Shown here piece by piece: positions 14,051 to 33,996 of a stretch of DNA of 61,795 bases; within the stretch, counting starts at the first letter, position 1, and the number at the start of each line of letters is the position of its first letter. A model generated the notes under the pieces. The model was not told where the DNA came from. It was given only the letters and a program-made list of their open reading frames with translations, and did not search any database. The stretch is from Flavobacteriaceae bacterium (GTDB lineage: Bacteria > Bacteroidota > Bacteroidia > Flavobacteriales > Flavobacteriaceae). The stretch spans positions 1-61,795 of the forward strand of contig NZFW01000026.1 in the NCBI GenBank assembly GCA_002690805.1, in the 5' to 3' direction. Made by a program: the position numbers and the translations under genes.

Positions 14051-15214
14051 TTATTTAGGAGCGAATTGATTTATATTTTTTTTCGTTATTGGGTTGTCTC
14101 CCAAAATCATTAATCTTTCAATGACATTTCTTAATTCTCGAATATTTCCTGACCAAGGATAGTTTTTAAGTGATTCAATAGCTTTAGAATCAAACTCTTT
14201 TAACTCTAATCCTTGATCTTTGGAGAGAACTTTAGTAAAATGTTCAACTAATAAACCAATATCTGATTTACGATCTTTTAATGGAGGAACATTAATTAAA
14301 ATGACAGCAAGTCTATGAAAAAGATCTTCTCTAAACCTACCATTTATGATCTCATTTTTTAAATTTTTATTAGTTGCAGCTATTACCCTAACATTGACTG
14401 TAATATCTTTGTTTCCTCCAACTCTTTGAATTTTATTTTCCTCAAGTGCTCTCAAAACTTTTGCTTGAGCCGCAAGACTCATATCAGCAATTTCATCTAA
14501 AAAAAGTGTACCATTATTGGCAGACTCAAACTTACCTGGTCTATCTTTGACAGCGGAAGTAAAAGCACCTTTTAAATGTCCAAACAACTCACTTTCAATT
14601 AATTCTGAAGGAATGGCTGCACAATTAACTTCAATAAATGGTAATTTTGACCTATCACTCTTTTGATGAAGATTATGAGCTACTAACTCTTTTCCAGTTC
14701 CATTTTCACCAGTTATTAAAACTCTTGCATCAGTGGATGCAACTTTATCAATTAAGTCATGAATTATTTTTATTTCTTTTGACTCTCCAATAATTTGATA
14801 TTTTTTTGCAACCTGTCTTTTTAAAATAATATTTTCGTTTACTAAACTCTTATTTTCAAGTGCATGTCTAACAGAATTTAACAATCGATTTAAGTCTGGA
14901 GGTTTTGATATAAAATCATAAGCTCCAAGCTTCATTGCCTCAACAGCTGTTGAAACATTACCATGACCTGTTAACATTATAAAGGGAAGAGCCTTATTAG
15001 AAACATTTGCATTTTGAAGTACTTCTATACCGTCTAGTTTTGGCATTTTAATATCACATAAAATAAGATCATAACTGTCGTTTTGTATCTTTTTTAGTCC
15101 TTCTTTACCGTCAAAAGCTTCATGAATTTCATAAGATGAGTCTTCCTCAGATAATATACGGAACAAAACTCTTCTTATTGGTTCTTCATCTTCGATAATT
15201 AAAATCTTTGCCAT
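14051..15214 (-). CDS. NtrC-family response regulator lacking a DNA-binding domain
   Basis: An N-terminal receiver (acid pocket Asp9/Glu10, phosphorylation site Asp54, Lys104) is followed by a sigma-54-activating AAA+ domain: Walker A GENGTGKE (169-176), GAFTSA loop (216-221) and a sensor-II region. The protein ends at residue 387 right after the AAA+ C-subdomain, so the usual Fis-type HTH is missing. It should still remodel sigma-54 polymerase but cannot bind an enhancer itself. It is sandwiched between mscS (one-base overlap) and the peptidase gene; no histidine kinase is nearby. My recollection is that other Flavobacteriia carry this same short form. Confidence 0.9.
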   Translation of the reverse strand: MAKILIIEDEEPIRRVLFRILSEEDSSYEIHEAFDGKEGLKKIQNDSYDLILCDIKMPKLDGIEVLQNANVSNKALPFIMLTGHGNVSTAVEAMKLGAYDFISKPPDLNRLLNSVRHALENKSLVNENIILKRQVAKKYQIIGESKEIKIIHDLIDKVASTDARVLITGENGTGKELVAHNLHQKSDRSKLPFIEVNCAAIPSELIESELFGHLKGAFTSAVKDRPGKFESANNGTLFLDEIADMSLAAQAKVLRALEENKIQRVGGNKDITVNVRVIAATNKNLKNEIINGRFREDLFHRLAVILINVPPLKDRKSDIGLLVEHFTKVLSKDQGLELKEFDSKAIESLKNYPWSGNIRELRNVIERLMILGDNPITKKNINQFAPK

Positions 15215-22307: not shown

Positions 22308-22380
22308 ACCCTAAAATAATTAGGGTATAAATAAGATATTAATAATAATTAAATGATAATACCCCTAAAATTTTAGGGGT
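22308..22380 (+). promoter_or_regulatory. Tandem palindromic operators upstream of glnB-amt-porin
   Basis: Site 1 is ACCCT (22308-22312), nine bases, AGGGT (22322-22326), inside a longer dyad ATACCCTAA/TTAGGGTAT. Site 2 is ACCCCT (22361-22366), eight bases, AGGGGT (22375-22380), part of a perfect 26-bp palindrome at 22358-22383. Site starts are 53 bp apart. The same pair with nearly the same geometry stands before the GSII gene (32867-32938). A -7-like box TACTTTTA follows at 22396-22403, so site 2 would overlap the -33 region. It is probably the binding site of a nitrogen-responsive regulator. Confidence 0.7.
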
Positions 22381-22424
22381 ATTTTATTTTTATAATACTT
22401 TTACAAAAATAAAATCAAATAGTT

Positions 22425-22763
22425 ATGAAAAAAATAGAAGCAATAATAAGGAAATCAAAATTTGAAGATGTAAAAAAAGCTCTTCACAATGTCGAGGTCA
22501 ACTTCTTTAGTTACTGGGATGTGACTGGAGTTGGGAACGAAAAACAAGGTCATGTTTATAGAGGTATATCATACAGTACTGCTGAAATACAAAGGAGGTT
22601 TTTATCAATCGTTGTTAACGATGACTTTGTTCAGCCCACTATTGACTCAATAATAGAATCTGGTGCAACTGAAAAGGTTGGAGATGGAAAAATATTTGTT
22701 TTGCCTGTTGAAGAAGCGTATCGTATCAGAACTGGAGAAAAAGGAGGCACTTCACTTAACTAA
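22425..22763 (+). CDS. glnB: Nitrogen regulatory protein PII
   Basis: A 112-residue trimeric PII signal protein (GlnB/GlnK type). The N-terminal MKKIEAIIRKSKFEDVKKAL, the T-loop with GHVYRGISY (Tyr50 equals the uridylylated Tyr51 of E. coli) and the B-loop GDGKIFVLPVEEAYRIRTGEKG (ATP and 2-oxoglutarate site) are all present. It senses ATP/ADP and 2-oxoglutarate and, being directly upstream of amt, most likely blocks the ammonium channel when nitrogen is ample, as GlnK does. The leader holds the tandem operators. Confidence 0.95.
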   Translation: MKKIEAIIRKSKFEDVKKALHNVEVNFFSYWDVTGVGNEKQGHVYRGISYSTAEIQRRFLSIVVNDDFVQPTIDSIIESGATEKVGDGKIFVLPVEEAYRIRTGEKGGTSLN

Positions 22764-22788: not shown

Positions 22789-24006
22789 ATGGAAACAACA
22801 ATTTTAACAGTAAATAATGTATGGATGATGATCTGTACAGCTTTAGTGTTTTTTATGCACTTAGGTTTTTCTTTCTTAGAAATAGGTTTAACAAGAAAAA
22901 AAAATACAGTAAACATATTATTTAAAAACTTTTTTGTGATTACTATTGGACTTTTAATGTATGCACTAGGGGGATTCAATTTAATGTATCCAGGATTTGA
23001 AGAAGGTTCTTCAGGAATTTTAAAATTTGCAGGATTTGGAATTACGGCTCCTGAAGGAGGTATGGGTTTTGGTTATGCCGATGGTGGATATACGTGGTGG
23101 ACTGACTTCCTTTTTCAAGGAATGTTTGCAGCAACTGCAGCAACAATTGTATCAGGAGCTGTTGCCGGGAGAATTAAATTAACATCATTTATGTTATTTA
23201 CAATATTTTATGTTGGGCTAGTTTATCCTATTGTTGGATCATGGAAATGGGGTGGTGGATTTTTAGACTCAATGGGATTTTATGATTTTGCTGGATCAAC
23301 ACTAGTTCATTCTGTCGGAGGATGGGCTGCTCTAGTAGGAATATATCTTTTGGGTGCCAGAGCAGGTAAATTTGATGAAAATGGAAAACCAAAAGTTTTG
23401 CCAGCTTCAAATATTCCTCTCGCTGCCTCTGGAGTATTAATACTTTGGTTAGGCTGGTTTGGATTTAATGGTGGATCTGTTTTATCGGCTGACCCTACAC
23501 TTACATCACTTACACTAGTAACAACATGTTTAGCTGCAGCAGCTGGAGGAGTAACCTCAGCGATTTCAGCAAATATCCTTTACAAAAAATATGATTTAAC
23601 AATGTTTATGAATGGAATTCTTGGAGGTTTGGTTGGTATTACAGCTGGAGCAGACCAAATGACCCCAACAGACGCAATCCTTATTGGATTTTTTGCAGGA
23701 ATAATTATTGTTGTTGGTATTTCTTTAATAGATAAATTAAAACTTGATGATCCAGTAGGTGCAGTTGCAGTCCACCTAATATGTGGAATCTGGGGAACAT
23801 TAGCTGTTGGTATTTTTGGTAAAATGGCAGGAGTTAGCCAGTTTATCATTCAATTAAAATCAATACTTATAATAGCCTTATTCTGTATTGTAACATCTTT
23901 TATAATTTTTTACTCAATTAAAAAGCTAATTGGACTTAGAGTTAACAAGGAAGAAGAATCTGAGGGATTAGATATAGCTGAGCACGGAATGAAAGCATAC
24001 GAATAA
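22789..24006 (+). CDS. amt: Ammonium transporter
   Basis: An eleven-helix Amt/Mep/Rh-family ammonium channel of 405 residues. Family landmarks: the region DFAGSTLVHSVGGWAALVG (conserved Asp and first twin His), GWFGFNGGS, and the second pore His in DDPVGAVAVHLICGIWG. The C-terminus ends in a charged tail for PII contact. It lies 25 bases after glnB and 32 before the porin gene in one operon, presumably induced under nitrogen limitation through the shared operators. Confidence 0.95.
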   Translation: METTILTVNNVWMMICTALVFFMHLGFSFLEIGLTRKKNTVNILFKNFFVITIGLLMYALGGFNLMYPGFEEGSSGILKFAGFGITAPEGGMGFGYADGGYTWWTDFLFQGMFAATAATIVSGAVAGRIKLTSFMLFTIFYVGLVYPIVGSWKWGGGFLDSMGFYDFAGSTLVHSVGGWAALVGIYLLGARAGKFDENGKPKVLPASNIPLAASGVLILWLGWFGFNGGSVLSADPTLTSLTLVTTCLAAAAGGVTSAISANILYKKYDLTMFMNGILGGLVGITAGADQMTPTDAILIGFFAGIIIVVGISLIDKLKLDDPVGAVAVHLICGIWGTLAVGIFGKMAGVSQFIIQLKSILIIALFCIVTSFIIFYSIKKLIGLRVNKEEESEGLDIAEHGMKAYE

Positions 24007-24038: not shown

Positions 24039-25061
24039 ATGAAAAATTTGAAAAAAATAACCCAAGTTTTATTAATATCAACAGTATTTAGTTACGTTTT
24101 TGCTCAAGATGGAGATGAGGAAGCTCCCACTTTCAGTGTTACTGGGTCTGTTGACACCTACCTTCGTTATAACTTATCAAATGACTTTGACACTAAACCT
24201 GGAACATCATTTGCTAATCTGCCTGGGTTTTCACTTGGTATGGCTAATATTATTCTAGGATATGAGGGGGAAAAATCAGGGTTCGTAGCAGATTTAGTTT
24301 ACGGACCAAGAGGAGAAGAAGCTGTTTTTAACTCTAAAGGTTCCAGTAATATAGTAAATCAAATGTATGTTTATTTTGATGTTGGAGAAAACACAACAAT
24401 TACATTAGGTAACTTCAACACCTTCCTTGGTTATGAAGTAATCTCACCTGTTGCTAATTTTAATTATTCTACTTCTTATATGTTTTCATACGGACCTTTT
24501 TCACACACAGGTATTAAAGCAGATTTTACACTCTCAGATAAAAGTTCATTGATGATAGGGTTATTAAATCCTACCGATATGACAGAAAGCAATCCAAATG
24601 ACACATATATGTTGGGAATACAATATGGTTATAGTGGACAATATCTCAATTATCTAGCAGGTCAAGGCTACTCTCAAATTGATTATACAGGAGGTTTTGA
24701 CATAGGAGAATCATTCTTTTTAGGAATTAATGCAACTTCTGCTTCTCAGGATTCTCCAAGTGGTGATGGAGGTTTTTCGGGTGTTGCTCTTTACCCTCAA
24801 CTGACATTATCCGAATCATTCAGCCTTGGATTAAGAGGTGAAATGTTTTCCGATGAAAATGATTTTACTGGTGTTTTTGGTAAAGCTTTAGGTGATGCTG
24901 ACAACACCTCTCTAACTTTAACAGGAAGTTATTCTTCTGGAAATATGATTCTTAAGCCAGAAATAAGAATTGATAGTGCATCTGAAAAAATTTTCAAAGA
25001 TGGAGCAGGTGTATCTGATAATTTAGCCTCATTTATTATTGCAGCCATCTATTCTTTCTAG
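24039..25061 (+). CDS. Outer-membrane beta-barrel porin of the glnB-amt operon
   Basis: Sec signal peptide (residues 1-22, cleavage after VFA), then about 310 residues of alternating polar/hydrophobic strands ending in the aromatic outer-membrane signature IIAAIYSF. It resembles the OmpL-like (BBP2) porins of Bacteroidetes. Its place behind glnB and amt suggests it lets ammonium or small organic nitrogen compounds through the outer membrane when nitrogen is scarce; that role is inference. A strong terminator follows. Confidence 0.8.
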   Translation: MKNLKKITQVLLISTVFSYVFAQDGDEEAPTFSVTGSVDTYLRYNLSNDFDTKPGTSFANLPGFSLGMANIILGYEGEKSGFVADLVYGPRGEEAVFNSKGSSNIVNQMYVYFDVGENTTITLGNFNTFLGYEVISPVANFNYSTSYMFSYGPFSHTGIKADFTLSDKSSLMIGLLNPTDMTESNPNDTYMLGIQYGYSGQYLNYLAGQGYSQIDYTGGFDIGESFFLGINATSASQDSPSGDGGFSGVALYPQLTLSESFSLGLRGEMFSDENDFTGVFGKALGDADNTSLTLTGSYSSGNMILKPEIRIDSASEKIFKDGAGVSDNLASFIIAAIYSF

Positions 25062-25095: not shown

Positions 25096-25127
25096 AACCC
25101 CCAGTTTCGTTTCTGGGGGTTTTTTAT
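25096..25127 (+). terminator. Terminator of the glnB-amt-porin operon
   Basis: Nine-base stem AACCCCCAG with CTGGGGGTT (25096-25104 with 25113-25121), loop TTTCGTTT, then T-run. Confidence 0.9.
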
Positions 25128-30658: not shown

Positions 30659-32803
30659 TTAACAACTAAATAACAACTCCCTGTATTTTGCTAAAGGCCA
30701 TAGAGTATTATCAACCAATAATTCAAGTTTATCACAGTGATATCTGATAGGGTTCATTTTAGTTAAAACTTTATTTGAATACTCTAAAGCTTTTTTGTGA
30801 TCATTCGAGATTTTATTTGCTTTCTTTCTAGACTCTATCATTAAGTTTACACCTGAATTAATAGCTGCAATATGTTCAGATATTCTCTTAATTAATGACA
30901 TTTGCTCATTTGCATATTTTTTATAGTCACTTCCATAAATCTCTTTAATTCCCTTTACATTTTCTATTAATGTGTTTTGATATTTGATTGCTGTTGGTAT
31001 GATATGATTTCTTGAAATATCTCCAAGTGTTCTTGCTTCAATTTGTATACGCATGATATATTCCTGAAGATCCACAATATATCTTGCCTCAATCTCTCTT
31101 TTTGATAATATATTTAATGATGAGAAAAGTTTAATACTCTTGACCTGTATATATGATTCCAATGACTCAGGAGTGGATTTATTATGACTAAGATTTCTTT
31201 TCTTTGCCTCTTTGATCCATGAATCAGAATAACCATCACCCTCAAATAAAATTGGTTTAATTTTTTTAATTTGATCCCTAAGAATATTAAAAATAGCATC
31301 ATCTTTCTTCATGTTCTTTTTACTGATAAGGTCATCTACTTTTACTTTAAAAGAAATTAACTGTTCTGCGACCATTGCATTTAAAAATGTCATAGGCTTT
31401 GCGCAATTTGCTTTTGAACCAACAGCTCTAAATTCAAATTTATTACCAGTAAATGCAAAAGGAGATGTTCTATTTCTATCCGTATTATCAAGTAAGATTT
31501 CTGGAATCTTACCAATCACATTTAACTTTAAATCTGTCTTCTCCTCAGGGGAGAGTTTTCCTTTAGATACATTTTTTAAATCTTCAATAACTTTAGTTAA
31601 TTGCTCTCCAATAAAAACTGATAAGATTGCAGGAGGAGCCTCATTAGCTCCTAGTCTTAAATCATTACTTGCACTTGCAATGCATGCTCGCAGAAGTTCT
31701 TCATGTTCTAAGACAGCAGATATAGTATTTATAAAAAATGTCAAAAACTGTAGGTTACTCATTGGTGTTTTTCCTGGACTCAAGAGGTTTACTCCTGTAT
31801 TAGTTGCTAAAGACCAATTATTATGTTTTCCTGATCCATTAATACCGTCAAAAGGCTTTTCATGAAATAGAACCTCAAGATCATGTTTATAGGCAACTTT
31901 ATACATTATATCCATTAACAAAGAATTATGATCAACAGATAAATTAACCTCTTCGTGAATCGGAGCTAATTCAAATTGACTTGGAGCAACCTCATTATGT
32001 CTTGTTTTTATTGGAATTCCTAATCTTAAGCACTCGTATTCGAGCTCTTTCATAAACTCTAAGACTCTATTAGGAATGGATCCAAAATAATGATCACTTA
32101 ATTGTTGACCCTTAGAGGACCCATGACCAAGTAAAGTCCTTCCAGTTAATTTAAGATCAGGTCTAGAGTCCATCAAAGATTTATCAATCAAAAAATATTC
32201 TTGTTCCCAACCCAGAGTAGGATATACTTTGGAAACGTTTTTGTCAAAAAATTTACAAACTGAAGTAGCTGCGCTATCTAAAGATGCAATTGATTTAAGT
32301 AATGGTGTTTTATAATCAAGAGCCTCCCCTGTGTAGGAAACAAAGATTGTTGGAATACACAAAGTGGTGTCAAAAATAAATGCAGGCGATGATGGATCCC
32401 ATGCTGTATAACCCCTAGCTTCAAAAGTATTCCTAATTCCACCACTAGGAAAACTGGAAGCGTCAGGTTCTTGTTGAGCAAGTTGAGCACCATCAAATTT
32501 TTCAAGTGGATATCCATCACTCGAGATTTCAAAAAAAGCATCGTGCTTTTCAGCTGTATTTCCTGTAAGAGGCTGAAACCAATGAGAGTAATGAGTAACT
32601 TCTTTGGAAATTGCCCAAGATTTCATAGCTGCAGCAATTTGGTCAGCAAGTGATTTGGAAATTTTTCCTCCTTTATCAATAACTTCTATTAAATTATTAT
32701 ATGATTCTTTGTTTAAATATTGTTTAAAATTACTTTCATTAAACACATTTGTGCCAAAAATTTCAGAATGTTTCAATATATTTTTTTTGAATTTCAATAT
32801 CAA
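30659..32803 (-). CDS. glnN: Type III glutamine synthetase
   Basis: The large (714-residue) GSIII form of glutamine synthetase common in Bacteroidetes, joining ammonia and glutamate with ATP. Core motifs: PGGIRNTFEARGYTAWDP, GWEQEYFLID (metal Glu), TRHNEVAPSQFELAP, GSGKHNNWSL and NRTSPFAFTGNKFEFRA. There is no ATG before the conserved FGTNVFN block; candidate starts are TTG at 32803, 32797 or 32776. A TATATTTG -7-like box overlaps the first of these, which would favour a later one. The N-terminus is about 20 residues shorter than I expect for the family. Divergent from GSII across the shared operators. Confidence 0.92.
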   Translation of the reverse strand: MILKFKKNILKHSEIFGTNVFNESNFKQYLNKESYNNLIEVIDKGGKISKSLADQIAAAMKSWAISKEVTHYSHWFQPLTGNTAEKHDAFFEISSDGYPLEKFDGAQLAQQEPDASSFPSGGIRNTFEARGYTAWDPSSPAFIFDTTLCIPTIFVSYTGEALDYKTPLLKSIASLDSAATSVCKFFDKNVSKVYPTLGWEQEYFLIDKSLMDSRPDLKLTGRTLLGHGSSKGQQLSDHYFGSIPNRVLEFMKELEYECLRLGIPIKTRHNEVAPSQFELAPIHEEVNLSVDHNSLLMDIMYKVAYKHDLEVLFHEKPFDGINGSGKHNNWSLATNTGVNLLSPGKTPMSNLQFLTFFINTISAVLEHEELLRACIASASNDLRLGANEAPPAILSVFIGEQLTKVIEDLKNVSKGKLSPEEKTDLKLNVIGKIPEILLDNTDRNRTSPFAFTGNKFEFRAVGSKANCAKPMTFLNAMVAEQLISFKVKVDDLISKKNMKKDDAIFNILRDQIKKIKPILFEGDGYSDSWIKEAKKRNLSHNKSTPESLESYIQVKSIKLFSSLNILSKREIEARYIVDLQEYIMRIQIEARTLGDISRNHIIPTAIKYQNTLIENVKGIKEIYGSDYKKYANEQMSLIKRISEHIAAINSGVNLMIESRKKANKISNDHKKALEYSNKVLTKMNPIRYHCDKLELLVDNTLWPLAKYRELLFSC

Positions 32804-32866: not shown

Positions 32867-32938
32867 ACCCTATAAAAATAAGGGTGTTCACAAAAATTTA
32901 TAAACATATATGATTTTGACCCCTATTAAACGAGGTGT
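32867..32938. promoter_or_regulatory. Tandem palindromic operators between GSIII and GSII
   Basis: Site 1: ACCCT (32867-32871), nine bases, AGGGT (32881-32885). Site 2: ACCCCT (32919-32924), eight bases, AGGTGT (32933-32938), one mismatch from perfect. Site starts are 52 bp apart, against 53 at glnB. A -7-like TATTTTTA follows at 32955-32962, 16 bases after site 2 (15 at glnB). Site 1 is 63 bases upstream of the GSIII start, so it may act on both genes. Confidence 0.7.
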
Positions 32939-32985
32939 CTTTTCAATAAATTACTATTTTTAATTTTTAATTAAAATAACAAATA

Positions 32986-33996
32986 ATGAGTAAATCAAAA
33001 CTTGAATACATATGGCTAGATGGTTACCTACCAACAGCTAATCTCCGAAGTAAAACAAAAGTCTTAGAAAATTTTAATGGCAAGCTTTCTAGCTGTCCAA
33101 TTTGGTCCTTTGATGGATCATCAACACTTCAAGCAGAAGGAGGTTCTTCAGACTGCTTATTAAAACCTGTAGCTATATATCCTGATCCAATGAGAGTTAA
33201 TGGATTCTTAGTAATGACAGAAGTTTTGAATGCTGATGGTTCGGCACATGAATCAAACGCCAGAGCAACAATAGATGATGATGATAATGATTTTTGGTTT
33301 GGCTTTGAACAAGAATATTTCATCATGGATACAGAAACTCAGCTTCCACTAGGGTTTCCTGTTGGTGGGTATCCAGGACCCCAGGGATTATATTATTGTT
33401 CCGTTGGTGGAAAAAATACTCATGGACGAGAGTTTGTTGAAGAACACGCTGACTTGTGCATTGATGCTGGATTAAATTTTGAAGGAATTAATCAAGAGGT
33501 TGCAAGTGGTCAATGGGAGTTTCAGTTATTTGCTAAAGGAGCAAAAAAAGCTGGTGATGAAATATGGATAGCAAGATATTTACTAGACAGACTAACCGAA
33601 CAATATGGATATTATATAGAATATCATCCAAAGCCTGTCAAAGGTGATTGGAATGGATCTGGAATGCATGCAAATTTTTCAAATAATATTCTACGAACAT
33701 GTGGAAATCAAGCTACTTACGAAAAAATATGTGAAGCATTCAGGTCTGTAACTAAAGAACATATTTCTGTTTATGGCCATGACAATGACCAAAGACTAAC
33801 AGGACTTCACGAGACTGCATCCATAAATGATTTTAGCTATGGAGTCTCAGATAGAGGAGCATCTATTCGAATTCCAATTGCCACAGTAGAAAATGGATGG
33901 AAAGGATGGTTAGAGGACAGACGTCCCGCTTCTAATGGTGATCCATACAAAATTGCTTCAAGAATTGTTAAAACTGTTAAATCAGCTAAAATTTAA
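32986..33996 (+). CDS. Type II (eukaryote-like) glutamine synthetase
   Basis: A 336-residue GSII-type glutamine synthetase, decameric in the family. Beta-grasp N-terminus (EYIWLDGY, WSFDGSST) and catalytic domain with FGFEQEYFI, GINQEVASGQWEFQ, NGSGMHANFS, GLHETASINDFSYGVSDRGASIRIP and the final EDRRPASNGDPY. It forms glutamine from ammonia and glutamate. Having both GSIII and GSII side by side is known in Flavobacteriia. Its leader carries the tandem operators also found before glnB. Confidence 0.94.
   Translation: MSKSKLEYIWLDGYLPTANLRSKTKVLENFNGKLSSCPIWSFDGSSTLQAEGGSSDCLLKPVAIYPDPMRVNGFLVMTEVLNADGSAHESNARATIDDDDNDFWFGFEQEYFIMDTETQLPLGFPVGGYPGPQGLYYCSVGGKNTHGREFVEEHADLCIDAGLNFEGINQEVASGQWEFQLFAKGAKKAGDEIWIARYLLDRLTEQYGYYIEYHPKPVKGDWNGSGMHANFSNNILRTCGNQATYEKICEAFRSVTKEHISVYGHDNDQRLTGLHETASINDFSYGVSDRGASIRIPIATVENGWKGWLEDRRPASNGDPYKIASRIVKTVKSAKI

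Follow-up and report, generated by a model that had tools for sequence, protein, structure and literature searches.

The ammonia-assimilation genes in the flavobacterial DNA analyzed here (61,795 nucleotides, the whole of which is called the window) raise the question of whether two spaced palindromes that stand before both glnB and the glutamine synthetase gene GSII are an operator for nitrogen control. This had been proposed in a sequence-only reading, which described in each promoter a distal site 1 and a proximal site 2, followed by a -7-like TAnnTTTa box and the start codon at similar distances. For glnB the site pair, the 26-bp palindrome, the -7-like box and the ATG distances were confirmed base for base. 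By direct reading of the window, site 1 is ACCCTAAAATAATTAGGGT and site 2 is ACCCCTAAAATTTTAGGGGT, the latter lying within a perfect 26-bp palindrome (22358–22383), and the ATG of glnB at 22425 is 44 bases past site 2. The features of this promoter and its operon are as follows.

22308–22326, no strand: distal operator site 1 of the glnB promoter, ACCCT-N9-AGGGT, register CCC-N11-GGG, kept in orthologous promoters
22341–22349, plus strand: AT-rich middle element of the glnB promoter, located by alignment to model R1 (described below)
22361–22380, no strand: proximal operator site 2 of the glnB promoter, kept in orthologous promoters
22396–22403, plus strand: -7 box TAnnTTTa of the glnB promoter, TACTTTTA, 15 bases past site 2
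22425–22763, plus strand: glnB, PII signalling protein (PF00543)
22789–24006, plus strand: amt, ammonium transporter (PF00909)
24039–25061, plus strand: beta-barrel porin-2, BBP2 (PF07642)

The middle element at 22341–22349 is a degenerate counterpart of ATAAAAAT, which is conserved in other glnB and porin promoters. Directly 3' of the porin gene, a strong terminator-like hairpin (AACCCCCAG...CTGGGGGTT, 25096–25121) is followed by a T-run and likely marks the end of the glnB-amt-porin operon. At the second locus, the site pair, the -7-like box and the ATG distance were likewise found where the earlier reading had placed them, with one base of the right arm of site 2 deviating in the window and the GSII ATG at 32986, 47 bases past site 2.

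32867–32885, no strand: distal operator site 1 of the GSII promoter, ACCCTATAAAAATAAGGGT, by direct reading
32919–32938, no strand: proximal operator site 2 of the GSII promoter, ACCCCTATTAAACGAGGTGT, by direct reading
32955–32962, plus strand: -7 box TAnnTTTa of the GSII promoter, TATTTTTA, 16 bases past site 2
32986–33996, plus strand: GSII (glnII), glutamine synthetase type II
30659–32803, minus strand: GSIII (glnN), glutamine synthetase type III, divergent from GSII

The GSIII gene of the window probably uses the same operator pair as GSII, because the pair precedes GSIII in genomes that have GSIII only. The neighboring genes had been taken for the ammonia-assimilation set, and PII, Amt, the BBP2 porin, GSIII and GSII were all identified as such.

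The earlier reading had named two outcomes that would refute the operator, a lack of conservation in orthologous promoters and random occurrence elsewhere in the genome. For the first of these, PII was searched in 149 genomes of the family together with the named genome contigs, and GSII in the same 149. Throughout the Flavobacteriaceae the palindromes are kept in nitrogen promoters, orthologous and paralogous alike, and the pair precedes all 30 GSII genes examined and most operon-first glnB genes and glnB-porin operons, with site centers 50–54 bp apart. In operons that begin with the porin (Leeuwenhoekiella L112, Psychroserpens L099, Aquimarina L111 and L114), it is the porin gene that the pair precedes, a shift which speaks for a role in the promoter. 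Further targets in family genomes are a second amt, gltB (gltBD), the alanine dehydrogenase gene ald, and GSIII where GSII is missing. Related genomes carry the paired motif at glnB, amt, glutamine synthetase and gltB genes, where the earlier reading had suggested looking for it. Several ammonium-assimilation genes that are not linked to one another share these upstream sites (glnB-amt, porin, second amt, GSII, GSIII, gltB and ald), and as read from the DNA this target list is one coherent, putative ammonium-assimilation regulon.

The model R1, based on sequence alone and trained on promoters of glnB, the porin and GSII (67 in all), matched 102 of the 149 family genomes at E<=1e-6, namely 85 of the 94 genomes with glnB versus 17 of the 55 without it (Fisher p=5e-14). 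This count is partly circular, since some of the searched genomes supplied training promoters. A good operator is absent in nine of the 94 family genomes with glnB, which indicates that it is dispensable there. Natural losses were seen in four family genomes (G064, G020, G004 and G060) that keep glnB and/or GSII with no recognizable operator at those genes, and such losses could be of use in finding the factor. The search at the class level is much less circular, the GSIII and amt genes of out-of-family genomes being absent from the training set. Among 295 genomes, 19 from outside the family were matched at E<=1e-4, and 16 of these matches lie directly upstream of GSIII (15) or amt (1), so that conservation extends to other families of the class. 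Two Bacteroidales loci match before a porin-PII-amt operon (L133, 1.4e-8; L116, 1e-4).

Several further observations were made during these searches. On five large viral contigs (L265, L267, L269, L274 and L305), GSII has CCC...GGG dyads about 90 bases upstream, which match the operator model at E values of 5e-6 to 2e-3 and lie beside the terminator-like hairpin of the preceding gene. It is possible that a host nitrogen operator was captured, or that these dyads arose by chance with the hairpin. Weak matches (E 3e-5 to 4e-5) were found at orthologous non-nitrogen places beside a ribF-like gene (L400 and L401, from genomes G435 and G360), probably by chance or through another regulator. Tandem repeats of amt and PII, in up to three copies behind one porin, occur in Confluentibacter sediminis and Wenyingzhuangia gilva (L078, 3879–10333; L107, 7195–11000).

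Random occurrence was assessed for single sites and for pairs. In the 61.8-kb window, the exact string ACCC-N11-GGGT is found only at the glnB and GSII promoters. In the 1.38-Mb genome it occurs at 12 places versus seven for the reversed control, so one site by itself is weak evidence, and the case rests on the pair, its spacing and its conservation. For pair counting, the genome of a relative (G043, 1.69 Mb) was assembled from stretches. Pairs scoring at least 19 number three in the bin of 50–55 bp, and these precede glnB-amt, GSII and a second amt, while all other 5-bp bins between 20 and 150 bp together hold four. In the 50–55 bp bin of this whole genome, strong pairs therefore mark nitrogen genes only, and the test of random occurrence was passed. 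At a looser cut-off of 16, the background in G043 is about four pairs per bin, so weak lone matches cannot be trusted. Scores of at least 16 were reached by 63 of 103 real promoters versus 6 of 10,300 shuffled ones, and CCC-N11-GGG is present in 66 of 69 promoters versus 0.2 in shuffles.

Of the sites in which both arms are present, 58 of 61 site 1s and 28 of 31 site 2s conform to a single register, CCC-N11-GGG (17 bp), and the dyad is usually framed as ACCC...GGGT around an A/T-tract. The sequence-only reading had taken the sites for two kinds with distinct roles (N9 with three C versus N8 with four C); this distinction was not upheld, as both are the same 17-bp dyad and looked different because the C-runs vary in length. 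The pitch of about five helical turns that it had also pointed out is real, with site centers 52–54 bp apart in 65 of 69 promoters in this register. The box TAnnTTTG begins 25–27 bp past the center of site 2 in 54 of the 65 promoters where it was found. If its first T is taken as -12, which is an assumption, the centers of site 2 and site 1 fall near -38 and -91, respectively. In 31 of 38 glnB and porin promoters a third element, ATAAAAA, follows the midpoint of the pair by 2–4 bp; it is not found at this position in GSII promoters. In the GSII promoters of most relatives the right arm of site 2, on the promoter side, is degenerate and the left arm persists. Such one-armed decay can be tolerated by a DNA-binding dimer and would not be by an RNA hairpin. 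An Rfam scan of the window returned three tRNAs and no other structured RNA.

By function the operator acts like the regulons of GlnR, NtcA or NtrC, and on the features tested it belongs to none of them. GlnR/TnrA of Bacilli, of the MerR family, similarly controls amtB-glnK, glnA and gltAB. The GlnR/TnrA site is the 17-bp dyad TGTNAN7TNACA, whereas the operator here is CCC-N11-GGG and the Bacilli string occurs in one of the 69 promoters. Among the loci examined, none has a glnR-type gene next to GSII or GSIII. Paired GlnR sites are described at some promoters, for example the nif promoter of Paenibacillus (PMC9948412, PMC6191146). NtrC with sigma-54 in Proteobacteria has the same physiological targets (glnA and glnK-amtB), but GG-N10-GC occurs in two of the 69 promoters versus 2.2 in shuffles, none of the 69 has GG 11–12 bases before the G of TAnnTTTG, and the promoters here carry this Bacteroidetes housekeeping-type box. 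In Cyanobacteria, NtcA, of the Crp family, activates glnA, glnB and amt genes from sites that lie a set distance upstream of their promoters; its string GTAN8TAC differs, occurring in one of the 69 promoters versus 1.7 in shuffles, and the Crp site TGTGA-N6-TCACA in none. The tandem Crp-dependent promoters of Escherichia coli have sites near -41 and -93, with two dimers about five turns apart. This dimer spacing and a proximal dimer adjoining the promoter are shared with the operator described here, while the DNA sequence is different and the protein family almost certainly so. No enrichment was seen in the 69 promoters for the NarL site (7-2-7), the lux box or the MerR-type dyad ACCCT-N11-AGGGT.

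The protein that might bind was sought among the transcription factors of G043, a streamlined, operator-positive genome. These were listed by means of short family consensus sequences, so some may be missed, and were tested for presence in operator-positive versus operator-negative genomes, with one common factor assumed throughout. None of the listed factors tracks the presence and loss of the sites. LrpA is absent from two complete operator-positive genomes (G118 and G113). In three genomes (L411, L412 and L413) an ald gene with an operator pair lies 2–3 kb from the LrpA gene, and LrpA could have a local connection with ald, although it is not the general factor. LrpB is unlikely to act class-wide, being clear in two of 11 out-of-family operator-positive genomes among the matches listed (to about E=1e-9); MarR1 was found in six of the 11, and an XRE protein, weakly, in four. 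For the only recognized Crp-type protein of G043, no clear orthologue exists in the operator-positive genomes G113, G137 and G040, nor for the NarL-type response regulator in G113, and orthologues of ArsR, DtxR and Rrf2 are missing from operator-positive genomes of the family. By these absences LrpA, Crp, ArsR, DtxR and Rrf2 are excluded within the family. Fur, the sigma-54 activator and a small MerR protein occur everywhere, also where the operator was lost, as do two OmpR-type regulators, an OxyR-like LysR protein and PadR within the family. The sigma-54 activator of G043 was rejected, as it is universal irrespective of the operator and the promoters are not of the -24/-12 type. About 8 kb from glnB, the window encodes an NtrX-like protein with a receiver and a sigma-54-type AAA+ domain (14051–15214, minus strand). 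Its linkage to glnB was seen in only four loci of streamlined lineages (L074, L076, L080 and the window) and was discarded as a lead. The copy of L080, read to its end, is truncated and lacks a C-terminal DNA-binding domain.

Different explanations of the palindromes can be weighed on this evidence. Since the palindrome at 22358–22383 with its T-rich tail was listed by the scan as terminator-like, site 2 could be the intrinsic terminator of the upstream crcB gene and site 1 incidental. However, the pair also stands between divergent genes (GSIII/GSII and gltB/porB), where there is no upstream transcript to end, the hairpin is destroyed in GSII promoters by decay of the right arms of site 2 while the left arms stay, and neither the fixed partner at 53 bp nor the -7 box has a role in termination. 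This explanation is extremely improbable and was rejected for the divergent placement and the unpreserved hairpin. It is also rather unlikely that several unrelated regulators with similar GC-rich palindromes in AT-rich genomes have converged, without forming one regulon. The failure of any single G043 transcription factor to fit the distribution of the operator would agree with this, but GSIII and amt promoters of other families are picked up by a model that was trained on one family's promoters of glnB, the porin and GSII, and it is unlikely that dyad, spacing, -7 distance and target set would all have converged. If instead one factor is responsible, it could be the small MerR-family protein, GlnR/TnrA-like, of 108 aa (G043 C11:66115-66441). 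Dyads of the form ACCCT...AGGGT are typical of MerR-family operators, and GlnR/TnrA also has a 17-bp dyad; this is the candidate whose family best suits the shape of the dyad. The protein is present in all operator-positive genomes tested, in the family and the class, and its relatives in the PDB include GlnR and TnrA. Yet CarH is as close to it as GlnR, its gene is flanked by an M23-like peptidase gene on one side and LemA/TPM-like genes on the other (family assignments by eye), and genomes without the operator have the protein equally, with an identical DNA-binding helix. It does not track the operator, and its identification as the factor is unlikely.

The main rival to an activator is a looping repressor, bound to the same paired dyads and blocking RNA polymerase when nitrogen is plentiful, with site 1 giving stability by looping. 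Site 2 overlaps the region of a would-be -33 element, perfect palindromes at a five-turn spacing also fit looping, and the decay of the right arm of site 2 in GSII promoters is compatible with repression. On the other hand, the -7 box follows site 2 at an almost invariant distance (25–27 bp), whereas repressor sites usually tolerate shifts, and the third element between the sites is fixed in position, which is more typical of polymerase contacts. Repression by looping is thus a possible but doubtful explanation. An activator that contacts the polymerase is favored because the distance to the -7 box and the middle element are fixed and site 2 occupies the -33 position.

The nitrogen-operator interpretation is supported by the conserved pairs at nitrogen promoters, without the protein or the sign of regulation having been demonstrated. 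Conservation, spacing, target genes and promoter geometry were established by computation. That the paired dyads are the sites of one dimeric factor controlling ammonium assimilation as a regulon in Flavobacteriaceae, and beyond them in Bacteroidia, is inferred with fairly high confidence, although no binding protein was found. The common factor, its binding, cooperativity, activation and the response to nitrogen are all inferred, the last from the target genes only. In the proposed mechanism, two dimers would bind one face of the DNA, 53 bp or about five turns apart, and the bound pair would recruit RNA polymerase, with site 1 supporting site 2. The middle A/T element may be contacted by the alpha subunits of the polymerase or may act by bending. 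Depending on nitrogen status, the pair would switch on PII, Amt, the porin, GSII, GSIII, GOGAT and alanine dehydrogenase. Activation rather than repression is inferred with moderate confidence, there being no expression data. Ample ammonium goes with higher expression of amtB and glnK in Prevotella ruminicola (PMC5552732), so regulation could be opposite in sign to the classical kind.

Both in seawater and in the gut, Bacteroidota rank among the most abundant bacteria. In the open PMC literature, subscription papers and preprints being outside the scope, we found neither such an operator described for Bacteroidetes nor the transcription factor that controls ammonium assimilation in Bacteroidota. 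The pairs occur in most of the family, with traces across the wider class, and are very likely the docking site of an unidentified nitrogen control protein. The chances are about even that Bacteroidia have a global nitrogen control of their own, in which a factor outside the known nitrogen-regulator families binds the paired dyads, with the fixed A/T element between them, and drives the regulon throughout the class. With its target list and fixed geometry, a class-wide operator provides a DNA fragment usable as bait for the protein, and a signature by which nitrogen-controlled genes of uncultured marine genomes can be predicted.
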